From Chloroflexota bacterium (GTDB taxonomy: Bacteria > Chloroflexota > Anaerolineae > UBA1429), in the NCBI GenBank assembly GCA_019873625.1, contig JAIOAW010000024.1:1-39647 (forward strand): 39,647 bases of DNA, given 5' to 3'. The stretch's first letter is position 1; the number at the start of each line of letters is the position of its first letter. Below the pieces are notes generated by a model. The model had not been told where the DNA came from. It saw only the letters and a program-made list of their open reading frames with translations, and searched no databases. Shown here one piece after another: positions 20,721 to 38,792 of the stretch. Position numbers and translations under genes: made by a program.

Positions 20721-22541
20721 GTGGCTGATCAAATCGATCGCACAAACCAATTTATCCGCAATTTTTGCATCATCGCGCATATTGACCACGGCAAATCCAC
20801 CCTATCCGATCGGCTGCTCGAGCGGACGGGGACCATCCCCGTGCGCGAGATGGCCGAGCAGTTCCTCGACCGGATGGATCTAGAGCGCGAGAAGGGCATT
20901 ACCATCAAGGCCAAGGCCGTGCGTATGCTCTACGAACGGCCGGAGGGCGTGTATGAACTGAACCTCATTGATACGCCGGGGCATGTGGATTTCTCCTACG
21001 AGGTTTCGCATGCCCTTTCGGCCTGCGAGGGGGCCGTGCTCGTGGTAGATGCCACCCAAGGCGTGGAGGCGCAGACGCTCGCCAACCTCTATATGGCGCT
21101 CGATTTGGGGCTGGATATCGTCCCCGTGGTGAACAAGATTGATCTCCCCTCCGCCCGCCCCGATGAGGTAGCCGAAGAGATCGAGGACCTCCTCGGCATA
21201 GATGCGGCGGAGGTCTTGCAGGTTTCGGCCAAAGAGGGCATTGGGATTGAGGCGCTCCTCGAGGCGATCATTCGGCGCATTCGCCCGCCGGCCGGCCAGC
21301 CCGATGCGCCCCTGCGCGCCTTGGTATTCGATTCGCATTATGACGCCTATAAAGGGGTCATCGCCTATGTGCGCGTGGTGGATGGCGCCATCTGGCCGGA
21401 GATGCCGACGCTTATTATGTCCACCCAGCGGCGTATTGAGCCGTTGGAGGTGGGCATTTTTAGCCCCGATATGAAACCCGTGCCGCGCCTTGTGGCTGGG
21501 GAGGTGGGCTATGTGGCCACCGGCCTCAAGACCGTGCGCGATTGCCAGGTGGGCGGGACCCTCACGAGCGCCGAAAACCCCGCGCAGGAGCCTTTGCCGG
21601 GCTATCGCCCTCCCAAGCCGATGGTCTTTGCCGGGCTATACCCCGTGGATACGGAGGATTACTTTGCCCTCCGCGACGCTTTGGAAAAACTCCAACTGAA
21701 CGATGCCTCGCTCGTCTTTCAGCCCGAATCGTCCGTCGCGCTGAACTTGGGGTTCCGCTGTGGGTTCTTGGGGTTGCTCCATATGGAGATCGTTCAAGAG
21801 CGGTTGGAGCGCGAATATGGCCTGGACCTCATCGCCACGGCGCCGAGCGTCGAATATCAGGTGCTTCGCAGGGATGGGACGGTGGTCGAAATCGAGAACC
21901 CCTGTGACCTGCCCGATGCCGCCGAAATCGAAGAAATCCACGAACCCTGGATGCGCGTCAGCCTCTTTACGCCCAAAGAGTACATCGGGCCGCTGATGGA
22001 TTTGGCCACCTCTCGCCGGGGCGAGTTCGAAAAGATGGAATACCTCGATGAGCGCCGCGTAGTGCTCGTGTTTCAGATTCCTCTGGCGGAGATCTTGGTG
22101 GATTTTCACGATCAACTCAAATCCCGTTCGCGGGGCTATGCCTCGATGGATTATACCTTCCTCGGCTACCGCCCCGGTGATCTCGTCAAGATGGATATCC
22201 TCCTCAACGGCGAACCGGTGGATGCCTTGGCGCTCATCGTGCATCGCTCGCAGGCCTATGCCAAGGGCAGCGTGCTCGTGCGCAAACTCAAAGAGGTCAT
22301 CCCCCAGCAGTTATTTCCCATCGCCATCCAAGCGGCCATCGGCGGCCGTGTGATCGCGCGTTCTACGGTCAAGGCTCTGCGAAAAGACGTGTTGGCCAAA
22401 TGCTATGGCGGCGACGTGACGCGCAAACGCAAGTTGCTGGAGCGCCAGAAGGAAGGGCGCAAACGCCTGAAACGCTTTGGGCGCGTGGAACTCCCGCAAG
22501 AGGCCTTTATGGCCGTCCTTCGGCTGAACGAAGAGGCGTAA
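20721..22541 (+). CDS. lepA: Elongation factor 4 (LepA)
   Basis: This translational GTPase acts on stalled or mistranslocated ribosomes and in 30S biogenesis. From GTG 20721 it has 606 residues, the usual size. The P-loop AHIDHGKST is at 19-27, switch [16 protein letters not shown] starts at 53, DTPGH is at 84-88 and NKID at 138-141. The LepA-specific C-terminal domain is intact, with [20 protein letters not shown] split near the end and [14 protein letters not shown]. An upstream in-frame GTG (20706) would add five residues. Neither start has a clear ribosome-binding site. It is likely cotranscribed with the glycosyltransferase gene that follows after 32 nt. Confidence 0.95.
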
Positions 22542-22573
22542 CGCCGCCGCGGGCGAAATCGAGGCAGGGGGCG

Positions 22574-24442
22574 TTGAACCGAAGGGGTTGGCAGCGAACG
22601 GCAATCTTGGTCGCTATCCTCGTGGGGGCGGCGGGCCTACGCCTCTACGGCATCTTGTGGGATGGCGGCTATCTCTTTCACCCCGATGAACGCCAGGTAA
22701 TGCTCGTGGCCGACGGCCTGCGCTTGCCTTGGCCCGTGCCGTGGCGTGCGCTCCTCACGCCTTCTAGCCCTTGGAACCCCCGCTTTTTCAGTTACGGGTC
22801 GCTGCCCATTTACCTCTTGCGGGTCTGCGCGAACCTGGCCGGGTTCATTTGGCCCAAGGTGCGCACGCTGGAGAGTTCCTTCTGGGTGGGGCGCATCCTC
22901 TCGGTGGCCTTTGATTTGGGGACGATCTACGTAACCTACCTCCTCGGGCGCCGCCTTTACCGCGAGGCCGTCGGCCTTTTGGCTGCGGCCTTGGTCGGGC
23001 TGACGGTGCTACACATCCAATTGGCCCATTTTTACGTCGTGGACCCCCCTCTGGCCTTCTTTGTGACGCTTACGATCCTTTTGGCCGTGCGCGCCGCGCA
23101 AAGGCCGCGTTTGGCGAATTGTTGGCCCTTGGGTGCGGCCTGGGGATGCGCCCTGGCCACCAAGGTGAGCGCGGCGCCCCTCGCCGTGCCCATCGCCCTG
23201 GCCTGGCTCCTCGGCACGGGGCGCCCTTACCCAAGCGCGGAGGGCGAGCGACGCGCCCTTTCGCCCCAGCGTTCGGCGGCTGGCTTTTGGCTCACGGCGT
23301 TGGTGGCGGTGGCGGTTTTTCTCTTCCTTGAGCCGTATGCCCTCATTGACCACAAGACGTTCCTGACCGATGTGGTCGGCGAGAGTATGATGGCGAGCGG
23401 GCGCATTGACGCGCCCTACACCCGGCAGTATATCGGCACCTTGCCCTACCTATACCTCATCTGGCAGACGGTGGTCTGGGGGATGGGCATTCCCCTCGGG
23501 GTGGCGGGGTTTGCCGGGTTCTTGGCGGCCATTGCCCAGGGCATTCGGCGGGTGTGCAAAAAGCAGGCCTCCCTTGTGGCGGGCGAGTTCGTGCCCCTCG
23601 GGTGGGGGCTGACCTATTTCGGCCTGATCGGGTCGCTCCATGCCAAGTTCTTGCGCTATATGCTCCCCCTGACGCCCTTGTTGTGCCTGTGGGCGGCTTG
23701 GCTCCTCGTGCAGGGCGCCTCATGGCGCGGCCGCCTATGGCGAAGAGGGCTGGGCTATGCCGCGATGGGCGTCGTCTCCGGGGGCGCGCTCTTTTATGCC
23801 CTGGCCTATATGAACGTTTACCGCCAACCCCACCCGTGGATTCAGGCGACGGCCTGGCTCTGCAAAAATCTGCCCCCGCGCAGCCGGATTATGGTGGAAC
23901 ATTGGGATGATCCCCTGCCGCTTTATCAGGGGACGGGCGAACTGGAATGCTACGGCCGGCATTACTTTATGGAGTTCCCGGCCTATGAGCCGGATGACCA
24001 AGGCAAACTGGATACGCTCCTGATGATGTTGCGCGCCAACGATTACATCATCTTGGCGAGCAATCGCCTGTATAATACGATTCCCCGCCTGCCGGAGAGG
24101 TACCCCCTGACGAGCCGCTATTACCAGGCCCTGCTGGGCGAGGAGTTGGGGTTCGAGTTGATCCATTACGATGCCGTGTATCCCTCCCTCTTTGGGGTGG
24201 ACTTGGTGGATGATACCTTTTCGGACCCGCCCCTGCCCCAGCCCAAATTGCTTCGCGAGGGCGAGGCCCATCGGCGTAAGATTATCCTGGGTAGGGCTGA
24301 CGAGAGTTTCACCGTGTACGATCACCCCAAGGTGTTGGTGTTCAAAAAGCGGGAGTTCCTCGACCGGGAGGGCTTTCGCCAGCGGTTGGGGCCGGTGACG
24401 GAGAATTTGCCGGGCAAGAAGGAGGAGCAACTCCTGCGTTGA
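22574..24442 (+). CDS. GT39-like GT-C membrane glycosyltransferase (paralog of the fusion protein N-terminus)
   Basis: This 622-residue polytopic protein starts with a transmembrane helix (about residues 9-26) followed by the HPDER motif, with D38-E39 as the GT-C acidic pair expected in the first outer loop. About ten hydrophobic segments follow, and a soluble C-terminal region carries FTVYDHPKVLVFKKR near residues 578-592. GT39-type enzymes move a sugar from a polyprenyl-phosphate to an acceptor on the outer face. The frame extends back into lepA, but TTG 22574 follows AGGGGG and yields a membrane start. The closest relative in the window is the first module of the 31596-38792 protein. Donor and acceptor are unknown. 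Confidence 0.82.
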   Translation: MNRRGWQRTAILVAILVGAAGLRLYGILWDGGYLFHPDERQVMLVADGLRLPWPVPWRALLTPSSPWNPRFFSYGSLPIYLLRVCANLAGFIWPKVRTLESSFWVGRILSVAFDLGTIYVTYLLGRRLYREAVGLLAAALVGLTVLHIQLAHFYVVDPPLAFFVTLTILLAVRAAQRPRLANCWPLGAAWGCALATKVSAAPLAVPIALAWLLGTGRPYPSAEGERRALSPQRSAAGFWLTALVAVAVFLFLEPYALIDHKTFLTDVVGESMMASGRIDAPYTRQYIGTLPYLYLIWQTVVWGMGIPLGVAGFAGFLAAIAQGIRRVCKKQASLVAGEFVPLGWGLTYFGLIGSLHAKFLRYMLPLTPLLCLWAAWLLVQGASWRGRLWRRGLGYAAMGVVSGGALFYALAYMNVYRQPHPWIQATAWLCKNLPPRSRIMVEHWDDPLPLYQGTGELECYGRHYFMEFPAYEPDDQGKLDTLLMMLRANDYIILASNRLYNTIPRLPERYPLTSRYYQALLGEELGFELIHYDAVYPSLFGVDLVDDTFSDPPLPQPKLLREGEAHRRKIILGRADESFTVYDHPKVLVFKKREFLDREGFRQRLGPVTENLPGKKEEQLLR

Positions 24443-24626: not shown

Positions 24627-25637
24627 ATGAAGAAGCAGCGTTTGCGCCTCATCGGTGGGATTTTGGTGAGCCTGCTCTTTTTGGGGTGGGCGCTTTGGGG
24701 CGTGCGCTGGGATGAATTCTGGCAATCCCTCAGAGGCGCCCGGTATGGCTATTTGGTGCCGGCGGCGGTCATCATCTACCTCGTCAGTTGGGTGAGGGCT
24801 TACCGCTGGCGCCTCCTGATGGCCAATGATCCGGCGCTCTCGCTGGGGCGCGTGTTCCGCTTTGTGAACATCGGTTACTTTTTCAATAACGTCCTGCCGG
24901 CCAAGGCGGGCGAGGTAGTGCGCGGCTACCTCGCAGGGCGGATCATCGAGGGGAGTTATGGGCAGGCGGCTTCCTCGCTCCTCATCGAGCGCCTTTTGGA
25001 TGTGCTCTGCGTCGTAATCCTCCTTGTCATCCTGCTCCCCTTCGTGGCGCTGCCCCCTTGGCTTATGCGCGGCGGGCTGATTTTTGGCGCCGCCGCTGTG
25101 GGGGGCACCATCGTGCTCATCATCCTTTCGCGCTTTGGCGCACGAGGGGTGGATTTCGTCTGGCGGTGGGTGGGGCGCATCCCCATCGTGGGGCACCGCC
25201 GCGTCAAAGAGGCGTTGGAGCACCTTATGGAGGGGTTTGGCGTGCTCACCAACAGGCGCCTGCTGCCCGGCATCCTTTTGGGGTCGGCGCTGGTGTGGCT
25301 GGGGTATGCCCTCTTTAACTATACGGTGATGGCGGCCTTTGGGCTGAACGCGCTCCCCTTTTCGGCGGCGGCTATGGTGCTTTGTGCCACAGGGTTCGCC
25401 ATGGTGCTCCCTTCGTCTCCGGGGGCCATCGGGGTGTTCGAAAAGGCGGGGATGATCGCCCTGGCGCTTTACGGGGTGGGCGAATCGTTGGCCTTTAGCA
25501 CGATGCTCGTGTTGCACTTGTATACGAATGTCATCCTCATCGCATTGGGGTTGGTGGGCCTGGCGATGGAGGGCCTGAGTTACCGCCGCCTGCGCGAGGA
25601 GGCCATCGCCCGCGAGGAGGCCTTGCCGAAATCCTAA
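24627..25637 (+). CDS. Flippase-like LPG-synthase-TM family membrane protein
   Basis: This 336-residue protein belongs to the lysylphosphatidylglycerol synthase transmembrane region family (UPF0104, AglD-tail-like). Seven or eight hydrophobic helices are spread along it. The signatures WVRAYRWRLLM (55-65), NNVLPAKAGEVVR (87-99) and the E121-R122-x-x-D125 set are intact. It lacks the soluble aminoacyl-transferase domain of MprF, so lysyl-lipid synthesis is unlikely. Members often sit beside glycosyltransferases and may move lipids or lipid-linked sugars across the membrane; that role is inferred. ATG 24627 has a GATAGGAG site. It heads the cluster behind a strong promoter. Confidence 0.85.
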   Translation: MKKQRLRLIGGILVSLLFLGWALWGVRWDEFWQSLRGARYGYLVPAAVIIYLVSWVRAYRWRLLMANDPALSLGRVFRFVNIGYFFNNVLPAKAGEVVRGYLAGRIIEGSYGQAASSLLIERLLDVLCVVILLVILLPFVALPPWLMRGGLIFGAAAVGGTIVLIILSRFGARGVDFVWRWVGRIPIVGHRRVKEALEHLMEGFGVLTNRRLLPGILLGSALVWLGYALFNYTVMAAFGLNALPFSAAAMVLCATGFAMVLPSSPGAIGVFEKAGMIALALYGVGESLAFSTMLVLHLYTNVILIALGLVGLAMEGLSYRRLREEAIAREEALPKS

Positions 25638-25676
25638 GTCTTGGAATCGTTACCCTTGGAGGGGAGAAGCGCCTGT

Positions 25677-26813
25677 ATGAGAGTTCTCGTGGCCCTGACG
25701 TATTATTACCCGCACTGGACGGGCCTTACCGCCTTTGCCCAACGCATTTCGGAGGGGCTGGCCGCGCGCGGCCACCAGATTACGGTGGTTACCTCGCGCT
25801 ATAGGCCCGATTTGGCGCCCGAAGAGGTGCACAACGGCGTGCGCATCGTGCGCGTCAAGCCCATTATGCGCCTGAGCCGCGGCCAGGTGATGCCGGGGTT
25901 TTTGCCCACCATCGCCAAGTTGGTCAAGGAGCATGACGTCGTCCAAGTGCACACGCCGATGCTGGAGACCTGGCCGGTGGGCGTCATCGCCCACCGCGCG
26001 GGGCGCCAACTCCTGATGACCCATCATGGCGACCTCGTGATGCCGGCGGGGCTGTGGAACCGCATCGTCCAGCATACGGTGGGCTATATGTTGAAGCGCG
26101 GTGCGGAGGTGGCCGACCGCATCAGCATCTACACGCAAGATTACGTGGAGCATTCGGATTTTTTGCGCCCTCACGCCCACAAGATCGTGACCATCTTCCC
26201 GCCGGTGGTCTTCCCCAAGCCGGACCTCGAAGCGGCCCGCGCCTGGCGGCAAGAGTTGGGGCTGGATGGCGCCCGTCTCATCGGGTTTGCGGGGCGCTTT
26301 GTGGAGGAAAAGGGGTTTGATTACCTCCTCAAGGCGATCCCTTATGTTCTGGAAAAGGTGCCCAACGCGCGGTTCGTGTTCGCCGGCGAGCACCGCGTGG
26401 TGTATGAGGATTTCTATCAGCGCTGCTTGCCCCTCATCGAGGCGCAAAAAGAGCACCTCGTTATGCTGGGGCTGATCACTGACCCGCGCCGAATGGCCAA
26501 CTTTTACGCGATGTGCGACGTGTTCGCCCTCCCCAGCCGCACCGATTGCCTGGCGAGCGTGCAGGTGGAGGCTATGCTCTGCGGCACGCCCGTGGTGGCC
26601 ACGAACATCCCCGGCGCACGGCAGGCCGTCAAGCGTTCGAATATGGGCCTTTTGGTAACACCCCGCGATGAGAGGGCCTTGGCGGAGGGGATTATCCAAG
26701 TGCTGGAACAGCGCCAGGCCTACGTGCGGCCTTATGAGGAGATTTTGACGACGTTTGACCCGATGACCTCCATCCTCGAATACGAGTGCCTTTTGCAGAG
26801 TATGTGCCGTTAG
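25677..26813 (+). CDS. GT4 family glycosyltransferase (GT-B fold)
   Basis: The 378-residue cytoplasmic or peripheral enzyme has an N-terminal acceptor domain starting MRVLVALTYYYPHWTGLT and a C-terminal donor domain with GFAGRFVEEKGFDYLLKA and VFALPSRTDCLASVQVEA. The catalytic E-x7-E motif appears as D290-x7-E298, an acidic substitution at the first position. GT4 members use nucleotide-sugar donors, often with polyprenyl-linked or lipid acceptors. The frame opens at 25641, but ATG 25677 follows TTGGAGGGGAG and gives the standard N-terminus. It lies 39 nt after the flippase-like gene. The specific sugar is unknown. Confidence 0.88.
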   Translation: MRVLVALTYYYPHWTGLTAFAQRISEGLAARGHQITVVTSRYRPDLAPEEVHNGVRIVRVKPIMRLSRGQVMPGFLPTIAKLVKEHDVVQVHTPMLETWPVGVIAHRAGRQLLMTHHGDLVMPAGLWNRIVQHTVGYMLKRGAEVADRISIYTQDYVEHSDFLRPHAHKIVTIFPPVVFPKPDLEAARAWRQELGLDGARLIGFAGRFVEEKGFDYLLKAIPYVLEKVPNARFVFAGEHRVVYEDFYQRCLPLIEAQKEHLVMLGLITDPRRMANFYAMCDVFALPSRTDCLASVQVEAMLCGTPVVATNIPGARQAVKRSNMGLLVTPRDERALAEGIIQVLEQRQAYVRPYEEILTTFDPMTSILEYECLLQSMCR

Positions 26814-26847: not shown

Positions 26848-27711
26848 TTGCCGCTGACCGACCCGCAACGCCAGATCATCGAGCGCTTTTTGCGTAACGA
26901 ATCGGACGTGGCCTACAAGCGCCGCGTGCGCACTATGCTCGATTACCTCGACCTCGCCCCTGGGCAGACGGCCCTCGATTGCGGCACGGGGATGGGGTTC
27001 TACACGAAACTCCTCTCCACACTCTATCCTTCCGCGCGCCTTTACGGCATTGACCAAGACAAGAAGGCGCTGGCCTTTGCCGCCGGCCAACTGCGCGGGC
27101 GCAACGTGCTCCTTACGGAGGGGGATATCCTCCATTTGCCCTTTGCGGACGCCTCTTTTGATGCCGTGGTGATGTCTGAGGTGCTGGAACACCTGGTGGA
27201 TGACGCGGCGGGTGCGCGCGAGGTGTGGCGGGTCCTCAAGCCGGGGGGTACGCTGGCCGTTACAGTGCCATATGCCCGCTACCCTTGGTGGTATGATCCC
27301 ATCAACCGCGCGGCCGAGGCGCTGAGGGGGCGGCCCATCCGCCAGGGGCCTTTTGCGGGCATTTGGGCCAACCATAAGCGCCTCTACACGGCGGAGCAAC
27401 TCGCCGCCGTGCTGGAAGGGGCGGGGTTCGCCATCGAGCGGCTCGAGTTCCTCACGCATTACTGCTTTCCTGGGACGCAGACGATCGTCTATACTTTCGG
27501 CAAGGGGCTTATCGAGCATAACCTCCTGCCGGAGGCGATTAGCCGCTCGGCGCATCGCTTCCGCAGCGAGGAAAACCGCGGCAGCCGCTGGAACCCAGTG
27601 AATTGGGCTTTGGCCGTGTTCAACTGGGTGGACCATTTCAACGAGCGCCCCGGTGGCGCGAGCCGGCATCGAACCTTTGTGAACATTGCCGTCAAAGCAA
27701 GAAAGGTCTAA
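26848..27711 (+). CDS. Class I SAM-dependent methyltransferase
   Basis: This 287-residue protein has motif I LDCGTGMGF (43-51), an acidic end of beta-2 at GID (67-69), motif LLTEGDILHLPF (88-99) and MSEVLEHL (109-116), as in the UbiE/COQ5-like and Methyltransf_11 group. The final third is specific and includes tyrosine- and proline-rich segments. The start is a TTG at 26848 with GGGAGGTGGG upstream. It sits between a GT4 and GT39-like genes, which suggests it modifies a sugar or lipid carrier in the same pathway, but the substrate cannot be read from sequence. Confidence 0.85.
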   Translation: MPLTDPQRQIIERFLRNESDVAYKRRVRTMLDYLDLAPGQTALDCGTGMGFYTKLLSTLYPSARLYGIDQDKKALAFAAGQLRGRNVLLTEGDILHLPFADASFDAVVMSEVLEHLVDDAAGAREVWRVLKPGGTLAVTVPYARYPWWYDPINRAAEALRGRPIRQGPFAGIWANHKRLYTAEQLAAVLEGAGFAIERLEFLTHYCFPGTQTIVYTFGKGLIEHNLLPEAISRSAHRFRSEENRGSRWNPVNWALAVFNWVDHFNERPGGASRHRTFVNIAVKARKV

Positions 27712-27720
27712 ACGGGGCCT

Positions 27721-29676
27721 ATGGGCGCGGAGAAACGAGGGAAGGCTCTCTTGCGCTTGGGGGTGGCTACGGTGTGCGCCTTTGCGGCGCAATGCCTGTT
27801 GACGGCGCGCCGCGCCTCCGTGTGGGATGGGATCGCCCTCTATGCCTTGGCTATGGCCATCCTAGCCGGCGCCTGGCGCGAGAGGGCGCCCGCACGGGGC
27901 GAGGGGTTGTTCCGCGAGGTCATTAGGGGTTTGTGGCAGGCCCTCGATCGCAGTGCCCTGCGCCTTGCGATGGCCCTTGTGGGGTGCGCCTTGGTCGCCT
28001 CGGCGGCCTTTGCGGCACCGGGGAGGCACCCTCAACAACCCTATATGGACCTTCTCGCCCTATGGCTGGTGGGCCTGGCGGCCTTTGGCGGGGCGTTTGT
28101 GCGTTGGGGCGCTTTCTCCAACAAGGCCCTGTGGCGGCGCGCTCTTCAGCCGGAGGGGGTGGGCGTTGGGCTGATCGTCCTCGGCACCATCCTTCTGCGG
28201 GCCGTTGCGGTGGAGTATATCCCTTCCGTCCTTTCCGGCGATGAGGCTTCCTTCGGGCTGGAGGCCTTGCGCGTCTTGCGAAGGGAACTGGGCAACCCCT
28301 TTGCCACGGGGTGGCTTTCTCACCCCTCCCTCTATTTCTTTATCCAGGCCGCGTTCATCCGCTGGTTCGGCGCCACGACGGCCGCGCTGCGCCTTTCTTC
28401 GGCGTTCATCTCGGGGGGGAGCGTGTTGCTCCTCTACCTTTTGGCGAAACGCTTTTGGGGGCGTGGCGTGGCCTTTATGGCGGCCCTCTATTTTGCCGTC
28501 TATCATTACGCCATTCACTTTGGGCGGCTGGGGCTGAATAATATCTGGGATACGTTTTGGGCGCTGGGGAGCCTTTACGCCCTCACGCGCGGCTTGCAGG
28601 AACGGCACCCCGGTTGGATGGCCTTGGGCGGCCTTTTTACAGGGATGGCCATCTATTTCTACCTCGGCGCGCGCTTGGTGCCGGTTTTGGCGGGGGTGTA
28701 TATCCTCCTTTGGGCGTGGCAAGAGAAGGGGTTTTGGCGCGCGCACGGCGCGCACCTCATCCTCTTTGGGGTGATGGCCTTGCTGGCGGCCCTGCCGCTT
28801 TTGGCTTTCTTCCGCCTGCACCCCGAACAGTTTACCGCGCGGTGGAGGTGGGTGGGCATCTTTCCGAGCGGCTGGGTGGCCTCGGAGATGGCTCGCACGG
28901 GGCGCAGTGTCTTCAGCCTGCTGTGGGAGCAATTCCTCAAATCCATCTTGGCCTTCAATGCCATCCCAGACCCCACCTTTTGGTACCGCCCGGAACGCCC
29001 CCTGTTGCTTTGGATGAGCGCGGTCTGGTTTGTATGGGGGGTGACGTACTGCCTCGTGCATTGGCGTAAACGGCCTTGCGCCTTGCTCCTCATCTGGTTT
29101 TTGGGCGTCGTGATCTTTGGCGGGGTGCTGCTCGAGAACCCCCCTTCCAGCCCGCGCTTTGTGATGGCCATCCCTCCGGTGGTGATGATGATCGCTTTGG
29201 GGATTCGCCAGGCGGCAGGCCTGGTGAGTGACCTCTGGGGGGGCCGCAAGGCCGTAACTTGGATTATGGCCCTCGTGCTCTTGGGGCTGTGCACGTATGA
29301 GAGCCTGCATTTCTACTTTGGCGTCTATACGCCCAGGCGGATGTTCTCCGACGAGAACACGGCCGTTGCCGACGCCATCGGGAAGTACCTGCGCGCCAAA
29401 GGGCCAGGCACGACGTGCTTTTTGGCCGGCCCGCCTCGGCTGTATTTCGGCCATGCGACCATCCCTTACCTGGCCCAGGGGGTAACGGGGGTGGACATCG
29501 TCGAACCCCTGACCGATCCGCAATCGTTGGATATTCCGGCCGGGGCCGTGTTCATCTTTTTGCCGGAACGGGCCGGCGAATTGGATGCCCTCTGGCCGTA
29601 CTATCCGCAAGGGACCATCTGGCGCTACCATGACACACGGGGCAACCTCCAATTCATCGCTTACGAACTGCCGTAA
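27721..29676 (+). CDS. GT39-like GT-C membrane glycosyltransferase
   Basis: The 651-residue protein has a run of about a dozen hydrophobic segments. After three or four N-terminal helices comes SGDEASFGLEALR, with D174-E175 as the expected GT-C acidic pair, then LSHPSLYFF and the LGRLGLNN-like block FGRLGLNNIWDTFW. A soluble C-terminal region (about residues 540-651) includes LAGPPRLYFGHATIPYL. ATG 27721 lies 9 nt after the methyltransferase stop. Family members transfer sugars from polyprenyl-phosphate donors to proteins or glycans outside the cytoplasm. The extra N-terminal membrane block (about 150 residues before the DE motif) is longer than in typical members. Confidence 0.8.
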   Translation: MGAEKRGKALLRLGVATVCAFAAQCLLTARRASVWDGIALYALAMAILAGAWRERAPARGEGLFREVIRGLWQALDRSALRLAMALVGCALVASAAFAAPGRHPQQPYMDLLALWLVGLAAFGGAFVRWGAFSNKALWRRALQPEGVGVGLIVLGTILLRAVAVEYIPSVLSGDEASFGLEALRVLRRELGNPFATGWLSHPSLYFFIQAAFIRWFGATTAALRLSSAFISGGSVLLLYLLAKRFWGRGVAFMAALYFAVYHYAIHFGRLGLNNIWDTFWALGSLYALTRGLQERHPGWMALGGLFTGMAIYFYLGARLVPVLAGVYILLWAWQEKGFWRAHGAHLILFGVMALLAALPLLAFFRLHPEQFTARWRWVGIFPSGWVASEMARTGRSVFSLLWEQFLKSILAFNAIPDPTFWYRPERPLLLWMSAVWFVWGVTYCLVHWRKRPCALLLIWFLGVVIFGGVLLENPPSSPRFVMAIPPVVMMIALGIRQAAGLVSDLWGGRKAVTWIMALVLLGLCTYESLHFYFGVYTPRRMFSDENTAVADAIGKYLRAKGPGTTCFLAGPPRLYFGHATIPYLAQGVTGVDIVEPLTDPQSLDIPAGAVFIFLPERAGELDALWPYYPQGTIWRYHDTRGNLQFIAYELP

Positions 29677-29695
29677 GGGCGGTGCGTGGTGGGGT

Positions 29696-31606
29696 ATGGC
29701 GCTCGGCGCGGCCCTTGCCGCTGCCGGGCAGGCCCTGCTCGATCGGCGGCAGATGCTATGGCTCGCCGCGGCCTGCTTGGCAGGGGGCGCGGTGGCCTTG
29801 GCGTGCACCGCGCCGGGCCTGGCCGGGCCAAGGGCACCCACAGGAGAGGCCCCAAGGGTGGCCATCAAATGGCCGTACCTTTTGGCGCTCGTGCCGCTTG
29901 GGGCCGTGTGCTTTTGGCGCTCGGCGGGGAACCGCTTCCGCTGGGAGGGGGTGCTGGCCTGGGCGGCGGGGTTTGCCTGCCTTGGGGTTGCGGCAGGCGT
30001 GGATTGGCCGCGCCGAATGGCTTTAGCCCTTAAACGGGCCTGGCGCGAGGGCATACACCTGGGCGCGGATGCGCTCCCCTTAGGGGGCATCGTGGCGCTC
30101 GGGGCCTTCTTCCGGCTGTATCGCATCGGCGAGATTCCCCTGGAGATGGGCTGCGACCTGCCGCTCATCCAAGGGAATATCGCCCAAATCCTAAAAGGGG
30201 AGTTCCCCACCTTTTTCACCTCCCATCCGGGGCGCGAGGCGCTCTTTTTCTACCTGGCGGCGCCCCTTGGTGCGGCCTTTGGCCTGAACCATACGACGAT
30301 CAAAGTGGCCTCGGCCCTGGTGGGTGTGGGGTGCCTATGGCTCATCTATCTCTTGGGGCGGGAGATGTTCGACCGCCGCGTGGGGGTGTGGGCCGCCTTC
30401 TTACTGGGCATCAGCCATTGGCATATCATCCTTTCGCGAACGGGGTTTCGCCTGAACACCTTGCCGCTGGTGTTTATGGCGATGTGGTATTTCGCCCTGC
30501 GCGGGGCGCGCACGGGCCGGCTTGGGGCGTGGATGGCCGCCGGCGCTTTCTTGGGGCTGGGGTACTATACCTACAATGCGTTCATCGTGGCGCCCTTGGC
30601 GCTCTGCGCCATCCTCCTTTGGGGACGAAAGCGCATACGCCGGCTGCCCCTCGCCCATTGGGGGATGGCGATTCTGGCGGCGTTGTGGGTGCTCTTGCCC
30701 TTGGGGCGGTATATCTATGATGACCCAGCGCGCTATGTCTATCGTGTGGCCACCCGCATCACGGATCTCGAGGTGCCCTTGCCGGAGCACCCTTGGGCCG
30801 TGCTAGGGCAGAATGCCCTGCGCGCCGCGCTGATGTTCAATATGCAAGGGGATGCCGTCTTTACCAACAACGTGCCCTTTTACCGCGAACTGGGGTTTAT
30901 GAGCGCCGTTTGCTTCGTCTTGGGGGTGGGCTATGCGTTGCGTCACATTCGGGCTGCGCCGGGCAGCCTTTTGGCCGTGGGCAGCGTGATGCTCCTGCCG
31001 ACGGCGCTCTCGCTCGCCTTCCCGCACGAGGTGCCCAACGCGGGCCGCGCCATCGGCGCCCTGGTGCCGGCCATCCTCCTCGCCGCGGTACCGGCCTCCC
31101 TTTTGCAAAGGGGCCTTTTCGGCGCCGTGCGCGCATCCGGCCGGGTGGGTTGGGCCGCAGGCGCTTTGGGCGTTCTTTTCATCGCCTCCTTTGCCGCCGA
31201 GGGGGTGAGCGTCTACCCGCTCTATTTCGAGAGGTACGTGTGGCACTTGCCGGACCACAACTATTCTATCTCGCTCGATATGGCGCGGACGATAGACGCT
31301 TTTGGCGAGAACGGGGAGGCCTATATCAAAGTGTGGCCCTATTGGTATGATGGGAACGCCATCCGCGCCCAACTGCGCCGCGTGGACTTTCCTTGGGAGC
31401 ACGAATTGACGACCCTGGACGTATCCAAGCCGCCCTTTACGGGCGAGCCGGGCAAGTTCTTGATGATCATCCACCCGGCGGATGCGGAGACTTTGGCCCA
31501 ACTGCGCAAGGCCTTCCCCCACGGGGTGCTCTTGGAGCACCGCAAGAATAGCGGTGAAATCGCCTTCTATGCCTTCTACGGAGAACGCGAACCCTATGGA
31601 CGATAA
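29696..31606 (+). CDS. GT39-like membrane protein with altered acidic motif
   Basis: This 636-residue polytopic protein resembles the preceding gene in layout: N-terminal helices, a first-loop motif, SHPGREALFFYLAAPLG, ILSRTGFRLNTLPL, then a helix block with PNAGRAIGALVP and a soluble tail. Where relatives have D-E it has D154-L155 (G-C-D-L-P), so the second acidic residue is missing. It may be inactive, may use another residue, or may have a structural role. The frame opens at 29585 inside the previous gene; ATG 29696, with GGTGGGG ahead, gives a membrane start 20 nt after the previous stop. Its end overlaps the giant gene by 11 nt. Confidence 0.75.
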   Translation: MALGAALAAAGQALLDRRQMLWLAAACLAGGAVALACTAPGLAGPRAPTGEAPRVAIKWPYLLALVPLGAVCFWRSAGNRFRWEGVLAWAAGFACLGVAAGVDWPRRMALALKRAWREGIHLGADALPLGGIVALGAFFRLYRIGEIPLEMGCDLPLIQGNIAQILKGEFPTFFTSHPGREALFFYLAAPLGAAFGLNHTTIKVASALVGVGCLWLIYLLGREMFDRRVGVWAAFLLGISHWHIILSRTGFRLNTLPLVFMAMWYFALRGARTGRLGAWMAAGAFLGLGYYTYNAFIVAPLALCAILLWGRKRIRRLPLAHWGMAILAALWVLLPLGRYIYDDPARYVYRVATRITDLEVPLPEHPWAVLGQNALRAALMFNMQGDAVFTNNVPFYRELGFMSAVCFVLGVGYALRHIRAAPGSLLAVGSVMLLPTALSLAFPHEVPNAGRAIGALVPAILLAAVPASLLQRGLFGAVRASGRVGWAAGALGVLFIASFAAEGVSVYPLYFERYVWHLPDHNYSISLDMARTIDAFGENGEAYIKVWPYWYDGNAIRAQLRRVDFPWEHELTTLDVSKPPFTGEPGKFLMIIHPADAETLAQLRKAFPHGVLLEHRKNSGEIAFYAFYGEREPYGR

Positions 31607-34600
31607 ACCGACCACCCCAATCCCCCAAGAGGATTTGCCCAGCGAAGAGAACGCGCTCACGTGGGCGGCCGTGGGCCGGGCCTTACGGCAAACCTGGCAG
31701 GCCCTGCCCCGCCTGGTGGAGGAGCCACCTTACGCGGCCCTTTTGCTCGTGGCCATCTTGATCTTGGCGGGGGCCTTTCGCTTCACCGGGTTAGATTGGG
31801 ATGAGGGCCAGCACCTTCATCCCGACGAGCGCTTTCTCACGATGGTGGAAAACAGCCTGCAATGGCCGAAATCGTGGGGAGAGTATTGGGATACGGCCGT
31901 TAACCCCCTCAACCCGAATAATCACAACTTTGGCTCCTATGTGTATGGCCTCTTCCCCGTGGTTGTAACCAAGTTTATGGGCGAGTTGCTCGGGATGACG
32001 GGCTACGGCGCCGTGTACTTGGTGGGGCGCGCCCTTTCGGGGGTGATGGACCTCCTCTCCATCGTCATCGTGTTCCTATTGGGGAGGAGGCTCTATAACG
32101 CGCGCGTGGGGCTAGTGGGCGCGCTCCTCGGCGCGTTGACGGTGCTGACGATCCAGCAATCGCACTTTTTCACGGTGGATAACTTTACCACCTTCTTTAT
32201 CACGTTGGCGCTTTATGCCGCGGTGCGCGTGGCCCAAGGCGAGGGGTGGGGGAGCGTGCTCCTCTTGGGGGTGGCCTTTGGGCTGGCCGTCTCTTGCAAA
32301 ATCAACGCCCTGACGTTCCTGCTCATCATCGGCTTGGCCTTTATCTTGCGGGCTGCGCGCCGCGCGGCCCTCTTTACAGAAGCGCCTGCCCACACGCGGC
32401 AAGTGCGCTTGGGGCGCTTTCAAATGCGCTGGGAGTGGGGCGCGAACCCACTCTGTGGCCCCCTGCCAAGCCGCGAGCGGTTTTTCGCCAAGGCCGTCGA
32501 GGCCATACCGGCCCTTTTGCTCGTGCTCGTGGTGGCCTTTTGGACCTTCCGCATCGTCCAGCCGCAGGCGTTTACCGGGCCGGGATTTTTCGACGTGCGC
32601 CTGAACCCGCAGTGGCTGGAGCAGATGGATTTCATCCGCAAACTGGTGGGCGGGGAGATTGACTACCCGCCCAGCCACCAGTGGGCGGCGCGCGCGCCTG
32701 TGCTCTATATGCTGGAGCATATGGTCCTATGGGGGCTGGGGCTGCCCTTGGGCCTTGCCGTCTGGGCGGCGTGGGCGCTTATGGCCTATGAACTCTATCA
32801 CCTGCGGTGGAAACACCTCCTCCCCTGGGCCTGGATGACCTTTACCTTCTTTTATCAGAGCGTGCAATTCGTCAAGACGGTGCGCTATCTCCTGCCCATC
32901 TACCCGACGATGGCGCTGATGGCTGCCTACGGCCTCGTCTATGCTTGGGATTGGGCGCGCCGCCCCAGGCGAGGGCGCCTGCTCTGGCTGCGGCGCTTGA
33001 CGAGGGGCGCGGTGCGGGCGCTGGTGATCGTGATCGTTGTGGGGACGGGCCTATGGGCCTTGGCCTTTACGAGCATCTATACCCGGCCGGTGACGCGCGT
33101 GGCGGCCTCGCGTTGGATTTTCCAGAACATCCCCAAGGGATCTACGCTCTCGTATGAACTGTGGGATGATGCCCTGCCCCTCAATATAGATGGCCGCCTG
33201 GCCGATGCGAATTATCGGCAGATCCGTATGGACCTCTATTGGGAGGACGTGCCCGAAAAGCGCGAACAGTTGTACCGGTGGTTGCAGGATACGGAATACA
33301 TCATCCTCTCCAGCAACCGCTTGTATGGGTCCATCCCCCGCCTGCCTATGCGCTACCCGATGACCCGGCGCTACTATCAAGCGCTCTTTTCGGGCGAACT
33401 GGGCTACGAGCTGTTTGCCACCTTTACCTCTTACCCACGGATTTTCGGCCTCGAGATTGTCGATGACGCGGCGGATGAATCCTTTACCGTGTACGATCAC
33501 CCCAAGGTGCTCATCTTCAAAAAGCGCCCCGATTTCAGCCTGGAGAACGTCAAGGCCATCCTGGGCGGCTATGACCTCGACCGCGTGGTGCGGATGCTAC
33601 CCAAGCAGGTATCTGCCGCGCCTAACGGCCTGATGCTCTACCGCAGCGAATGGGCGGCCCAGCAGACCGGCGGCACGTGGATAGCCATTTTCAACCCTGC
33701 CAGCCTGATGAATCAATTCCCGCTCTTGTGGTGGCTTGTAATCTTGGAGGGGGTGGGATGGGTGGCCTTCCCCCTGGCGTTCGTGGCCTTGAGCGCCTTG
33801 CGAGATCGCGGCTTTGCTCTGGCCAAGGCGGTGGGGCTACTCCTTTGGGGGTATGTTACCTGGCTTCTGCCGAGCCTCAAATGGGTGCCCTATAGCCGCG
33901 AACTCATTGCGGGGGCCTTGGCGGGGCTGGCGCTGCTTTCCTTGGGGGTGGGGATAGGGCGCCACGCGGAGATGGCGGCCTTTTTCAAGGCACGGTGGCG
34001 GCTCGTGATCGCTTACGAGGTCATCTTCTTGGCCGCCTTCGGGGCCTTTCTCTGGGTGCGGTGCGGCAACCCGGATTTGTGGCACCCCGTCACCGGCGGC
34101 GAAAAGCCGATGGACCTTGCCTATCTCACGGCCATCCTCAAGAGCGTCTCCTTCCCGCCGTATGACCCGTGGTTCGCCGGCGGGGCGATGAACTATTACT
34201 ACTTTGGCTGGGTGCTCTTGGCGAGCATCATCAAACTGACGGGCATCGTGCCGGAGGTGGCCTATAACTTGGCCATCCCCACGCTGTTTGCCTTGGTGTT
34301 CAGCGGCGCCGTGGGGATCGTGTACAACCTCACCGCCTCGGCGGAGGAGGAAGGGGGCTGGTTCCCACGGCCCTTGCGTTACGGCCTGGCCGGGGGATGC
34401 CTCTTGGCCATCCTTGGCAACTTGGGGGAACTCACCCTGGTGGTGGGGGGCCTGCGGCAACTCGGCGAGGGGGTGGCCTTCCAAAGCCGCGTGCCCCTCT
34501 TGAAGGCCATCGTCCAAGTGGGCGCGGGGCTGTGGCAGGTCCTTTCCAAGCGGACGCCCCTTCCCTTCCGCAGCGAGTGGTGGTATTGGAACCCCACCCG

Positions 34601-37600
34601 CGTGATGAAGTTCGGGGAAATCAACGAGTTCCCCTTCTTTTCCTTCCTCTATGGAGACCTGCACGCCCATATCCTCGCCATGGCGCTGGCCCTTTTGGCC
34701 TTGGGCGCGGCCCTACAAGTGGCCCTGCGGAGCCGGGCGCGCGCCCCGTGGGAAGGCAGGCCGGCGGCGCCGTGGCCCGGCATCCTGGGGCGGCTAGGCC
34801 TCTCGACGGATACTATCCTCTCGTTGGGGTTGGGGAGTTTGGTCTTGGGCGCGCTGTGGGCCGCCAACACGTGGGATTACCCAACCTACACGCTCATCTT
34901 TCTCATCGCCCTGGCCATCGGCGTGTATGAGGAGCGGCGGCGCTTCGATCGGCAGGCTTGGCTGTGGCTAGGGGTGCGAGGGGCATCCACGGTAGTGGCG
35001 AGTTATCTCCTCTTTGGGCCGTTCCACGGGCGGTTTGGCTCGGCCTACTCTCAAATCGAACGATGGCGCGGCCCGCGCACCCCGCTGGGGGATTATGTGA
35101 TCATCCACGGGGTGTTCCTCTTTATCTTGGCCTTTTATCTCCTCGCCTTGGCCTTTCGGCCTGGCGTGCGCAACGGGGTGGCGCGCACGGTGCGCCTTTT
35201 CTGGCATCATTGGAAGAGGCGCTGGCGCGCCTGGGTGCTCTATGAGCGCTGGGTGCGCTGCCCTACCTTGGGCTATTCTCTGGCCTGGGTGGCGCTCGCC
35301 TTGGGGGGCGCCGTGTGGCTGGGCCTTGTGATGGCGGGGGCTTGGCTGTGGGCGCTTGCCCTGCCCCTGGTGGGGGTTGGAGCCGCGCTGTGCCTTTCGG
35401 CCCGTTTAGCGCCGGAGCGTCGCTTGCAGGCGGTATGGATCACCCTGGGGCTGGCGATGACGCTCGCCGTGGAAGTGGTGGTGCTCAAGGGGGATATCGG
35501 GCGGATGAACACCGTCTTTAAATTCTACCTGCAAGTATGGATCCTCTGGGCGCTCTCGGCGGGGGCGGGGCTGGCCTACCTCGCCCGCGATGAGGCCAGA
35601 TGGCCCAGGCGTTGGCGCGCCCTCTGGCGATGGGGGCTGGGGGTGCTCCTTTTGGCCGCTTCGATGTATCCGCCGCTGGCGACGTGGGCGCGCCTGCGCG
35701 ATCGTTGGGATCCCTCATTACCACCCACCCTGGATGGTATGGCCTATATGACGACGGCTGCCCACTCGGAAAACGGCTCGCCCATTACCCTAGAATACGA
35801 CCGCCGCGCCATCTGGTGGATGCGCGAGCACATCCCGGGCACGCCCGTGGTGGCCGAAGCGAATACGCCGTTCTATCGCTGGGGAGGGCGCATCTCCGTC
35901 TATACCGGGCTGCCCACCATCCTCGGCTGGGATTGGCACCAAAAACAGCAGCGCGCGGCTTACAGCGGCCTTGTGGTGGATTGGCGCCAGCAAGATGTGA
36001 ACGACCTCTATAACACGCACGACGTTTCGCTCGCGCGCCAGATCATCGCACGTTACAACGTGCGCTACATCTATGTGGGGGAATTGGAGGCTGCCTACTA
36101 TGACCCCGCCGGCCTCGCCAAGTTCGAGGCTATGGTGGGGACGGATCTGGAGGTCGTTTACCGCGATGGGCCGGTGACGATTTACCGCGTGCTGGGCGGG
36201 GAGGGCGTAACTGGCGCCGTGCGACCGATGGGCCTTGGGCGACAGATTGCCCATTGGCTGCGCGCGCATTGGGTGCCCCCGGTAGTCAAGGCAGAGGCCC
36301 CCGCAGAGGCAAACCCTATGCTGAGCACGCCGGTTGAAGAACTCCCCGTATTGCGAGACCGGGGCTGGAACCGCCTGGCGAACGCCTCGCCCATCGGGGC
36401 CATCTTGTGCTGGTGGGGGGTGCTGCAACTGATCGGTTTGGCCGCCTGGCCCCTGGCGCGGCGGGTCTTTGGCGCCGAGGATGGCGGATACGCCCTCGCC
36501 AAGCCGTTGGGGCTGTTGGTGCTCTCTTATGGCTTGTGGCTTGGGATGAGCCTGCGCCTCGTGCGCAATACGCCGCTCGCCGCCTGGGTCGGTTTGGCTC
36601 TCTTGGGGGGAGTGTGCACCCTCTTGTGGGGGTGGCGCTGGCGGAGGGCAGCGCGCCCTTTTGCCTGGCGCCTCCTCGCGGCGGAGGAGGGCCTTTTTAG
36701 CGCCGCCTTCGCCGCCTGGGTGGTGCTGCGCCTCCTCAACCCCGACCTTTGGCAACCCTGGTTCGGCGGCGAAAAGATGATGGAGATCGCCTTCCTCAAC
36801 GCCATAACACGCTCGGCCTATATGCCCCCCTATGACCCGTACTTTGCGGGGGGCATCATCAACTATTATTACTATGGCTATTTTATGGTGAATATCCTCG
36901 TCAAGATGACGGGTTTGCGGCCGGAGGTGGCCTTCAACGTGGCGGTGCCCACCTTTTTCGCTCTGATGGCCTCCATCACTTTTTGGGCCGGGCGGAGCCT
37001 GACGCGCCTGGGGATGACGGCGAAGGAGGGCGAAAAGGGGCATTGGGCCATATGGGGGGGCGCGGCGGCCGTCTTTTTCGTCGTGTTGGCCGGGAACCTG
37101 ACGGGCGCCAAACAACTGCTGGATGGCCTAGCCCAAGCGGGAGGAGCGCCCTTGGAAGAGGGGCGGCGGAACATCTTGGGGTATGCCCTCCCTGGCCTCG
37201 TGCGCATCGCCCAGGGGAAGGCCGTGCTGCCGCCGTTCGATTATTGGTGGGGCGGCACGCGCGTCATCCCAGGGACGATCAGCGAATTCCCCTTTTTCAC
37301 CTTCCTATTTGCGGATTTGCACCCCCACTTGATGGCTTTGCCCTTTACCGCGTTGGCCTTGGCGGCGCTGGTGGATATGGGCGCCTCGCGCGAGGCTTGG
37401 CTTGCCCCGGATCTTTGGCGGTGGGGCGCCCTGGCGCTTACGGTGGGCGCCTTGGGGGCCATCAACACCTGGGACCTGCCCACCTATCTTGGCCTGGCCT
37501 GTTTGGGGCTGTGCTGGGCGGGGTGGCGCAGCCGTTCCTCGCGGGGGATTTTGATGGCCCTTTTGGGGTGTGCAACCCTCGTGGCCGGGGCCTTTTTTCT

Positions 37601-38792
37601 TTACAGCCCTTTTTATGCGCATTACCGCCCGCAATATGTGGGGTTCAAGTTGGCCCTTGTGCCGCAAGGCTTGCGCTCTCGGCCAAAGGATTGGAACCTC
37701 GTCTGGGGAGGGATGCTCTTCTTGAGCGCCTCCGGGCTATGTTACGGCCTGCGCCTTTCGGCCGCCGTGCGCACGGTGGGCCTCATCGCTCGCTACGGTG
37801 CGCGGCGCGCCTGGGGCACCCTGCGCCGGTTTGGGGTCGTTTCTCCGGCGAAGGTGGCCGGCCTCCTCTGCCTTGTGGGCCTGACGGCGGCCGGCGCGGC
37901 CCTGGCGGCGGGGCAGGGCTTCCCCACGGTGGGCATCTTGTTGGCCTTGGTGGTTCTCGCGGCGTGGAATATCGCCCTCTGCCGGCGCGAGGCGCGTGCG
38001 CTCCCCTATGCGCTCATCCTGTTGGGGTTGCTCATCATCGCGGGCACCGAGGTCTTTTATCTGCGCGACTTTTTGGAGGGCAGCGAATGGCGCCGGATGA
38101 ACACGGTGTTCAAGTTTGGCTTACAGGCCTGGGTGCTCATCGGGTTGGGCGGCGCGGCGCTCTTCCCTTTGGTTTGGAAGGGCTGGCGAGGCGTTTGGCG
38201 CGGCGCGGCGGCGCTTTGCCTAATTGCCGTTGCGGTGTACCCGCTCAAAGCCGTACCGGTGCGCGTGGAAGAGCGCTTCCCGGAATATCCTGGCCCCCGG
38301 TGGACGCTCGACGGCACCGCCTATATGGAGAATGCCACCTATACCTGGCCGGATGAAACCCACCGCATCGCGATGCGCTACGACCGCGAGGCGCTCGAGT
38401 GGTTGTGGCAGAACGTTGAAGGCACGCCCGTCATCCTCGAGGCGCCCGTGGGGTTCTACCGCGAGGGCGGGTTGCGCATCTCATCCTATACGGGGTTCCC
38501 GACGCTCCTAGGGGCGCACGAGGGCGAACAGCGCCCTTGGCCCGTGGTGGCCGAACGGGAGCGGGATGCCATCCGCCTCTATACCACGCCCTATGCGGAG
38601 GAGGCGGCGCACTTGCTCGAAAAGTATCGCGTCCGCTATGTGTACATCGGTCCGTTGGAGCGGGTGCTCTATGCCGAAGAGGGCCTGCGCGGGCTAGAGG
38701 CCCTGGCAGAACAGGGGGCGCTGTGGTGCGTCTTTCAAAACGAGGGGGTAACGATTTACCGGGTTCAGCCCACGCAGCCCTTAGAAGGGTAA
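31596..38792 (+). CDS. Giant membrane fusion: GT39-like module plus two DUF2298 (Chlor_Arch_YYY) modules
   Basis: The 2398-residue protein has three membrane modules. Module 1 (about 1-690) is GT39-like: D69-E70, HPDER at 75-79, a helix block, and FTVYDHPKV at 630-638, all echoing the 22574-24442 protein. Module 2 (about 700-1532) is DUF2298 with E836-K837, D857, YYYFG 867-871, EFPFF 1011-1015, DLHAH 1021-1025, MNTVFKF from 1304 and a soluble tail from D1380. Module 3 (about 1590-2398) repeats this: E1726-K1727, D1747, YYYYG 1757-1761, EFPFF from 1897, DLHPH 1907-1911, M2168 and a tail from D2239. ATG 31596 lies 11 nt inside the upstream gene. The TPR repeats I recall for the two-copy class are absent. 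No frameshift or internal stop is seen. Biochemical activity is unknown; a GT-C-like transferase role is inferred. Confidence 0.85.
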   Translation: MDDKPTTPIPQEDLPSEENALTWAAVGRALRQTWQALPRLVEEPPYAALLLVAILILAGAFRFTGLDWDEGQHLHPDERFLTMVENSLQWPKSWGEYWDTAVNPLNPNNHNFGSYVYGLFPVVVTKFMGELLGMTGYGAVYLVGRALSGVMDLLSIVIVFLLGRRLYNARVGLVGALLGALTVLTIQQSHFFTVDNFTTFFITLALYAAVRVAQGEGWGSVLLLGVAFGLAVSCKINALTFLLIIGLAFILRAARRAALFTEAPAHTRQVRLGRFQMRWEWGANPLCGPLPSRERFFAKAVEAIPALLLVLVVAFWTFRIVQPQAFTGPGFFDVRLNPQWLEQMDFIRKLVGGEIDYPPSHQWAARAPVLYMLEHMVLWGLGLPLGLAVWAAWALMAYELYHLRWKHLLPWAWMTFTFFYQSVQFVKTVRYLLPIYPTMALMAAYGLVYAWDWARRPRRGRLLWLRRLTRGAVRALVIVIVVGTGLWALAFTSIYTRPVTRVAASRWIFQNIPKGSTLSYELWDDALPLNIDGRLADANYRQIRMDLYWEDVPEKREQLYRWLQDTEYIILSSNRLYGSIPRLPMRYPMTRRYYQALFSGELGYELFATFTSYPRIFGLEIVDDAADESFTVYDHPKVLIFKKRPDFSLENVKAILGGYDLDRVVRMLPKQVSAAPNGLMLYRSEWAAQQTGGTWIAIFNPASLMNQFPLLWWLVILEGVGWVAFPLAFVALSALRDRGFALAKAVGLLLWGYVTWLLPSLKWVPYSRELIAGALAGLALLSLGVGIGRHAEMAAFFKARWRLVIAYEVIFLAAFGAFLWVRCGNPDLWHPVTGGEKPMDLAYLTAILKSVSFPPYDPWFAGGAMNYYYFGWVLLASIIKLTGIVPEVAYNLAIPTLFALVFSGAVGIVYNLTASAEEEGGWFPRPLRYGLAGGCLLAILGNLGELTLVVGGLRQLGEGVAFQSRVPLLKAIVQVGAGLWQVLSKRTPLPFRSEWWYWNPTRVMKFGEINEFPFFSFLYGDLHAHILAMALALLALGAALQVALRSRARAPWEGRPAAPWPGILGRLGLSTDTILSLGLGSLVLGALWAANTWDYPTYTLIFLIALAIGVYEERRRFDRQAWLWLGVRGASTVVASYLLFGPFHGRFGSAYSQIERWRGPRTPLGDYVIIHGVFLFILAFYLLALAFRPGVRNGVARTVRLFWHHWKRRWRAWVLYERWVRCPTLGYSLAWVALALGGAVWLGLVMAGAWLWALALPLVGVGAALCLSARLAPERRLQAVWITLGLAMTLAVEVVVLKGDIGRMNTVFKFYLQVWILWALSAGAGLAYLARDEARWPRRWRALWRWGLGVLLLAASMYPPLATWARLRDRWDPSLPPTLDGMAYMTTAAHSENGSPITLEYDRRAIWWMREHIPGTPVVAEANTPFYRWGGRISVYTGLPTILGWDWHQKQQRAAYSGLVVDWRQQDVNDLYNTHDVSLARQIIARYNVRYIYVGELEAAYYDPAGLAKFEAMVGTDLEVVYRDGPVTIYRVLGGEGVTGAVRPMGLGRQIAHWLRAHWVPPVVKAEAPAEANPMLSTPVEELPVLRDRGWNRLANASPIGAILCWWGVLQLIGLAAWPLARRVFGAEDGGYALAKPLGLLVLSYGLWLGMSLRLVRNTPLAAWVGLALLGGVCTLLWGWRWRRAARPFAWRLLAAEEGLFSAAFAAWVVLRLLNPDLWQPWFGGEKMMEIAFLNAITRSAYMPPYDPYFAGGIINYYYYGYFMVNILVKMTGLRPEVAFNVAVPTFFALMASITFWAGRSLTRLGMTAKEGEKGHWAIWGGAAAVFFVVLAGNLTGAKQLLDGLAQAGGAPLEEGRRNILGYALPGLVRIAQGKAVLPPFDYWWGGTRVIPGTISEFPFFTFLFADLHPHLMALPFTALALAALVDMGASREAWLAPDLWRWGALALTVGALGAINTWDLPTYLGLACLGLCWAGWRSRSSRGILMALLGCATLVAGAFFLYSPFYAHYRPQYVGFKLALVPQGLRSRPKDWNLVWGGMLFLSASGLCYGLRLSAAVRTVGLIARYGARRAWGTLRRFGVVSPAKVAGLLCLVGLTAAGAALAAGQGFPTVGILLALVVLAAWNIALCRREARALPYALILLGLLIIAGTEVFYLRDFLEGSEWRRMNTVFKFGLQAWVLIGLGGAALFPLVWKGWRGVWRGAAALCLIAVAVYPLKAVPVRVEERFPEYPGPRWTLDGTAYMENATYTWPDETHRIAMRYDREALEWLWQNVEGTPVILEAPVGFYREGGLRISSYTGFPTLLGAHEGEQRPWPVVAERERDAIRLYTTPYAEEAAHLLEKYRVRYVYIGPLERVLYAEEGLRGLEALAEQGALWCVFQNEGVTIYRVQPTQPLEG

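Follow-up and report, generated by a model that had tools for sequence, protein, structure and literature searches.

A three-module GT-C-type membrane protein of Chloroflexota carrying two Chlor_Arch_YYY modules in one reading frame

The fusion protein described here is a very large bacterial membrane protein with three GT-C-type modules in one chain: a PMT_2-type module (M) and two Chlor_Arch_YYY/DUF2298 (Y) modules, YA and YB. In most relatives, such glycosyltransferase folds are found in separate proteins. The gene lies in the window, the whole stretch of 39,647 nucleotides of Chloroflexota DNA that was analysed (table 1). Its layout has been described before, in a family of unknown function, and is seen here without the TPR repeats; to this the analysis adds the identity of M, three Y lineages (A, B and C), a linker scar, a probable second origin of the fusion and an AglB-like domain. 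In those parts of the literature that were searched, DUF2298 is barely mentioned and is given no functional account; TIGR03663, the Agl23 family, had no mention in the literature searched. The layout of the fusion is a good handle on the function of Chlor_Arch_YYY proteins.

Table 1. Features of the fusion gene and its neighbourhood (window coordinates).
Feature	Position	Strand	Residues, basis or remarks
Stand-alone paralogue of M, PMT_2 type	22400..24442	+	profile match, alignment, M tree
Flippase-like membrane protein (LPG_synthase_TM, TIGR00374), conserved neighbour	24627..25637	+	profiles, synteny
GT4-type cytoplasmic glycosyltransferase, conserved neighbour	25641..26813	+	profile, synteny
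Methyltransferase, conserved neighbour	26848..27711	+	profile, synteny
PMT_2-type glycosyltransferase, conserved neighbour	27721..29676	+	profile, synteny
PMT_2-type glycosyltransferase, conserved, directly upstream of fusion	29585..31606	+	profile, synteny
Whole M-YA-YB fusion gene	31596..38792	+	2398 aa; coordinates include stop
Module M, PMT_2-type GT-C module	31596..33665	+	residues 1-690
Module YA, first Chlor_Arch_YYY/DUF2298	33684..36191	+	residues 697-1532; N-terminal helices, GT-C core, C-terminal globular domain
YA predicted first outer loop	34095..34208	+	GGEKPMD 834-840 (invariant E836), NYYYFG 866-871
YA invariant block EFPFFSFLYGDLHAH	34626..34670	+	residues 1011-1025 (D1021, H1023, H1025)
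YA C-terminal globular domain, AglB-like fold	35781..36191	+	residues 1396-1532
YA-YB linker	36192..36395	+	residues 1533-1600
Scar in YA-YB linker, PMLSTPVEELPVLRDRGWNRLANASPIG	36315..36398	+	residues 1574-1601; equals M(B)-to-YB joining segment of M-YB proteins
Module YB, second Chlor_Arch_YYY/DUF2298	36396..38768	+	residues 1601-2391
YC, third, stand-alone YYY gene, cut by contig end	38806..39647	+	profile matches

The frame contains no internal stop over its 2398 residues and is also open upstream to 31482; counted from the ATG at 31596, the gene shares only 11 bases with the one before it. A single intact frame had been claimed in the earlier note, and the frame is unbroken in independent genomes as well. 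The contig ends just downstream, where strains differ by 1.9%, which might suggest an assembly or sequencing artefact. This is scarcely credible and is ruled out as an account of the frame, as the YA-YB junction lies in a single frame in 12 other genomes of two families, and full-length proteins of 2355-2464 aa are encoded in six. An Rfam search of the window gave no matches.

Module M is recognized by the PMT_2 profile (PF13231; residues 143-256, 50.8 bits against a cut-off of 26.1) and by PF02366 (31.8 bits against 22.7), the PMT-type matches spanning only about 115 residues. Against the TIGR03663/Agl23 family, it scores 27.1 bits, well under the cut-off of 126.25, and falls outside that family. 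The best match to its sequence profile is AglB, with STT3A and PMT2 also found. The GT-C core is present in an AlphaFold2 model of M built on an alignment of 73 locus sequences (pLDDT 93.9, pTM 0.91). Fold neighbours identified with VIA-align are AglB (Z 31.4, 6.8 Å over 439 residues), ArnT (Z 28.3, 3.5 Å over 347), ALG12 (Z 28.3) and PMT4 (Z 27.7). Of the label 'GT39-like GT-C module' given earlier, the fold is retained; GT39 is too narrow, because AglB/STT3, ArnT, ALG12 and PMT4 are roughly tied. Twenty-two columns are invariant in 73 M modules, among them R62, W68, H75, P76, D77 and E78; residues 75-78 form an HPDE motif in the predicted first outer loop. The suspected kinship of M to its stand-alone neighbour was correct, with 34% identity over the length of M. 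Contrary to what the earlier note implied, the module is not special to the fusion protein: the TPR-bearing two-copy class carries the same M, and M-Y proteins are widespread in Chloroflexota and Acidimicrobiia.

Both tandem DUF2298 modules reported earlier are evident from profile searches. TIGR03662 (Chlor_Arch_YYY) matches twice, for a sum of 1067 bits; taken singly, the modules score 566 and 526 bits (cut-off 300.25). PF10060 (DUF2298) also matches twice, with 734 bits in total against a cut-off of 27.8. YA and YB share 35% identity over their full length, and each has a YYYxG motif, NYYYFG at 866-871 and NYYYYG at 1756-1761. Across 106 Y modules, twenty alignment columns do not vary; they include R, the E of GGEKxM, the YY of YYYxG, EFP, DxHxH, RxN and H; the residues concerned are R822, E836, M839, Y867, Y868, E1011, D1021, H1023, H1025, R1303, N1305, H1448 and others. 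Lineages A, B and C alike keep these residues (134 copies), so that none of YA, YB and YC looks dead. The conserved columns argue for purifying selection on each module. Searches of the fusion protein found no WWDYG motif, no match to the STT3 family (PF02516) and no TPR profile match, the last in agreement with the earlier observation that the protein stops without TPRs.

Structure prediction places YA within the GT-C fold. The AlphaFold2 model (alignment of 106 locus sequences; pLDDT 95.0, pTM 0.95) was compared with known structures by VIA-align, and the first 39 rows contain nothing but GT-C enzymes and isolated C-terminal domains of AglB. The best match is STT3 (Z 20.1, 7.1 Å over 473 residues); others are ArnT (Z 16.9), PMT4 (Z 15.5, 4.8 Å over 367) and AftA (Z 15.0), and among unrelated rows none exceeds the Z 6.6 of a designed helical protein. 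Foldseek alone gave only two matches with E < 0.001, and the structure searches may have missed some distant folds. The C-terminal domain of YA fits the globular domain of AglB (3vu0) with Z 11.8 and an rmsd of 2.6 Å over 117 residues. For YB, the GT-C fold is likely from homology to YA. Lack of a GT-C fold, the outcome that would have spoken against the earlier description, was thus encountered in neither M nor YA. The further claim that each module ends in a soluble domain holds in the models of M and YA, and YB aligns across the same region. Comparison of the Y profile with solved structures gave only chance matches and no relative by sequence. When the profiles of Y and M were compared, the match was weak and confined to the C-terminal part (probability 28%), and the kinship of Y and M therefore rests on fold.

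The alignment of YA with STT3 starts at about residue 97 of the model; the first approximately 92 residues form three extra helices (697 to approx. 790). Lysines plus arginines, counted together, average 1.66 and 3.70 in the predicted inside loops and 0.50 in the predicted outside loop, a positive-inside pattern that puts the predicted N-terminus of Y outside. A Y module so oriented could follow a module with an outer C-terminal domain while the orientation of the core is kept. Indirectly, this supports the view that the three extra helices before each Y core would keep all cores the same way up.

The Y modules fall into three groups, A, B and C, in trees of 134 and 100 modules. Group A always stands behind M, group B is second in the fusion and elsewhere follows its own M, and group C stands alone. 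Judged from these trees, YA, YB and YC are three old paralogues. A simple tandem duplication of YYY within the fusion protein is rejected, YA and YB belonging to separate old lineages. In the M tree, M of A, M of B and stand-alone M are separate, and M(B) does not form a single clade. One locus (L131) has M-YA, M-YB and YC side by side. At its end the fusion linker carries LxLxxPVxxLPVVxxRGWNxLAN, which in M-YB proteins stands before YB, and a comparable LML...GTW segment occurs at the M-to-YA join. Because YB elsewhere has its own M and the linker carries the M(B)-YB joining segment, the simplest reading is that adjacent M-YA and M-YB genes apparently merged, with loss of the body of the second M. 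The opposite course, in which YB gained an M later, is less parsimonious.

YYY was present in 60 of 60 relatives searched. A survey covered 75 named loci and 20 regions from relatives. M-Y proteins of about 1400-1800 aa are the general architecture there, and Anaerolineae, Dehalococcoidia/SAR202 and Acidimicrobiia all have them. The TPR-less three-module form is full length (2355-2464 aa) in the window genome and in G003, G005, G010, G012, G043 and L041; in other genomes it is cut by contig ends. A YA-YB junction probe, run against 298 genomes of the class, found the junction in one frame in 13. It is unbroken in 12 (ten of family f1, including the window genome, and two of f30), and in the thirteenth, G013, the match is in two pieces of one frame. 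The remaining listed matches cover one side only, mostly the YB half within proteins of M-Y length. In the stretches that follow M-YA in L045 and YC in L119, no further YYY gene was seen. In L043, where YB is missing, M-YA and YC share a frame and are split by a single TGA and six bases before the ATG (L043:14423-14434), one stop codon short of an A-C fusion. In L103 (9935-17637), YA and YB are encoded apart, by overlapping genes in two different frames, and this YB nests among the fused ones; either fission or a sequencing frameshift would account for the split.

The two-copy class of TIGR03662, which we take to be defined by an extra N-terminal region, two copies and C-terminal TPR repeats, exists, as the earlier note stated. 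Its members are frames of 2336-2774 aa in other Chloroflexota (families f70, f80, f106 and f109), with M-YA-YB followed by about 200 residues of TPR; clear TPRs were present in both members tested. The window protein has the extra N-terminal region and both YYY copies, and ends without the repeats. Its YB groups with Anaerolineae M-YB proteins, whereas the YB modules of the TPR class form a separate branch. When all fused B modules are made to group together, as expected of one ancient fusion common to the window protein and the TPR class, the log-likelihood is worse by 50 and the tree is mildly rejected (p-AU 0.025); a tree with one fusion within Anaerolineae is not (p 0.18). The separate branching and this mild rejection favour two independent fusions, and the trees suggest that fusion probably arose twice, from the same neighbours in the same order.

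The gene belongs to a glycosylation cluster directly after lepA, downstream of a ribosomal protein/secY/map/rpoA/truA region (window 2241-22541). The order is lepA, stand-alone M, flippase-like protein, GT4, methyltransferase, two PMT-type genes and the fusion, followed by YC, a PMT-type gene, Agl23/NHL, HAD and a poly(A) polymerase-like gene; from lepA to the last, it is largely kept in relatives. The last 638 bases of YC (window 39010-39647) overlap the start of contig C38 (L036:1-638) at 98.1% identity, which suggests that the assembly mixes strains and that the contig broke inside YC for this reason. Contig C38 carries the rest of YC, then two more PMT-type genes. The second of these (L036:4060-7122) encodes a protein of 1021 aa with a C-terminal NHL beta-propeller, which at 296 bits (cut-off 126) truly belongs to TIGR03663/Agl23; homologues occur downstream of YC in many relatives. 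Another stand-alone lineage-C YYY gene, long-branched, lies on contig C1 of the same genome (L037:6141-8441). The genome is rich in GT2 and PMT_2 genes, and a search for STT3 found no clear member, the one match, exactly at the cut-off of 24.5 bits, being another PMT-like gene. Such a setting would fit a pathway for surface glycans.

The fusion is probably a set of three linked, active GT-C modules that face outward and depend on a polyprenyl donor for transfer. We infer that the modules are active, what type of donor they use and that they act jointly on one substrate. The chain would contain three GT-C glycosyltransferases, with all active sites expected to face the cell exterior. Polyprenyl phosphate would probably be the sugar carrier for each module, and the recipient a surface glycan or glycolipid made by the surrounding cluster; the globular domains at the C-terminal ends may hold the acceptor. 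The fusion of neighbours supports modules that work together, not an order of action; a fixed order on a single substrate, as the earlier note proposed from the covalent linkage, is a guess that we doubt. Equally doubtful is a wider scheme in which M-YA-YB, YC and the Agl23-type and PMT-type neighbours form an outward assembly line that replaces STT3, with three sites acting on the same glycan in fixed order, and in which selection for equal amounts fused the neighbours twice. The GT-C fold, AglB-like domain, invariant residues and repeated fusion to a PMT-type module provide testable hypotheses and point mutations for a large family of unknown function.

Other roles can be envisaged for the same architecture. 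The Y modules might act as an oligosaccharyltransferase in place of a missing STT3: a complete lipid-linked glycan would be handed to protein en bloc, and the AglB-like domain would present the acceptor. STT3 and AglB are the best structural matches, the C-terminal domain of YA fits that of AglB at 2.6 Å and the genome has no clear STT3. We nevertheless consider this unlikely, as the protein has neither WWDYG nor an STT3 family match, and ALG12, ArnT, PMT4 and AftA, enzymes with single-sugar lipid donors, fit nearly as well. In some GT-C systems, certain paralogues are non-catalytic, and a single module could be catalytic here with the others serving as docking or scaffold domains. Partners are indeed sometimes lost or absent (YB in L043; YC in L077 and L103), but the same invariant residues persist in the YA, YB and YC lineages and M has an invariant set of its own, which makes this very unlikely. 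M and Y keep acidic and histidine residues in the loops by which enzymes of the GT-C fold bind the donor. This speaks against a flippase or scramblase role for lipid-linked sugars in at least one module, as does the presence in the cluster of both a TIGR00374 flippase-like protein and an Agl23 member. Such a role is quite unlikely, and M scores far under the TIGR03663 cut-off. It is suggested by the weak relationship of M to Agl23 and by the true family member two genes past YC. Agl23 of Haloarcula hispanica was reported to move M5GN2-PP-Dol in liposomes (PMC11182771), so that a GT-C-like sequence need not mean sugar transfer.

Transfer by three linked GT-C modules, the preferred reading, invites comparison with several known systems. 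The STT3/AglB/PglB oligosaccharyltransferases have the GT-C core in common with the fusion protein, and a C-terminal globular domain similar to that of YA; they differ in WWDYG and PF02516, both absent from the fusion, and in lacking the three extra N-terminal helices of Y. With PMT, ArnT and PMT_2 proteins (GT39, GT83), M shares the fold and the PMT_2 profile match, but it has a C-terminal domain and invariant residues of its own. M is weakly similar to Agl23 of TIGR03663, whose true member is encoded in the same cluster. The two-module M-Y proteins resemble the fusion in having M directly before a YYY module, and lack a second YYY. The TPR class shares the order M-YA-YB, lineages A and B as in the window protein and a similar linker motif in most members; it differs in its TPR tail of about 200 residues.
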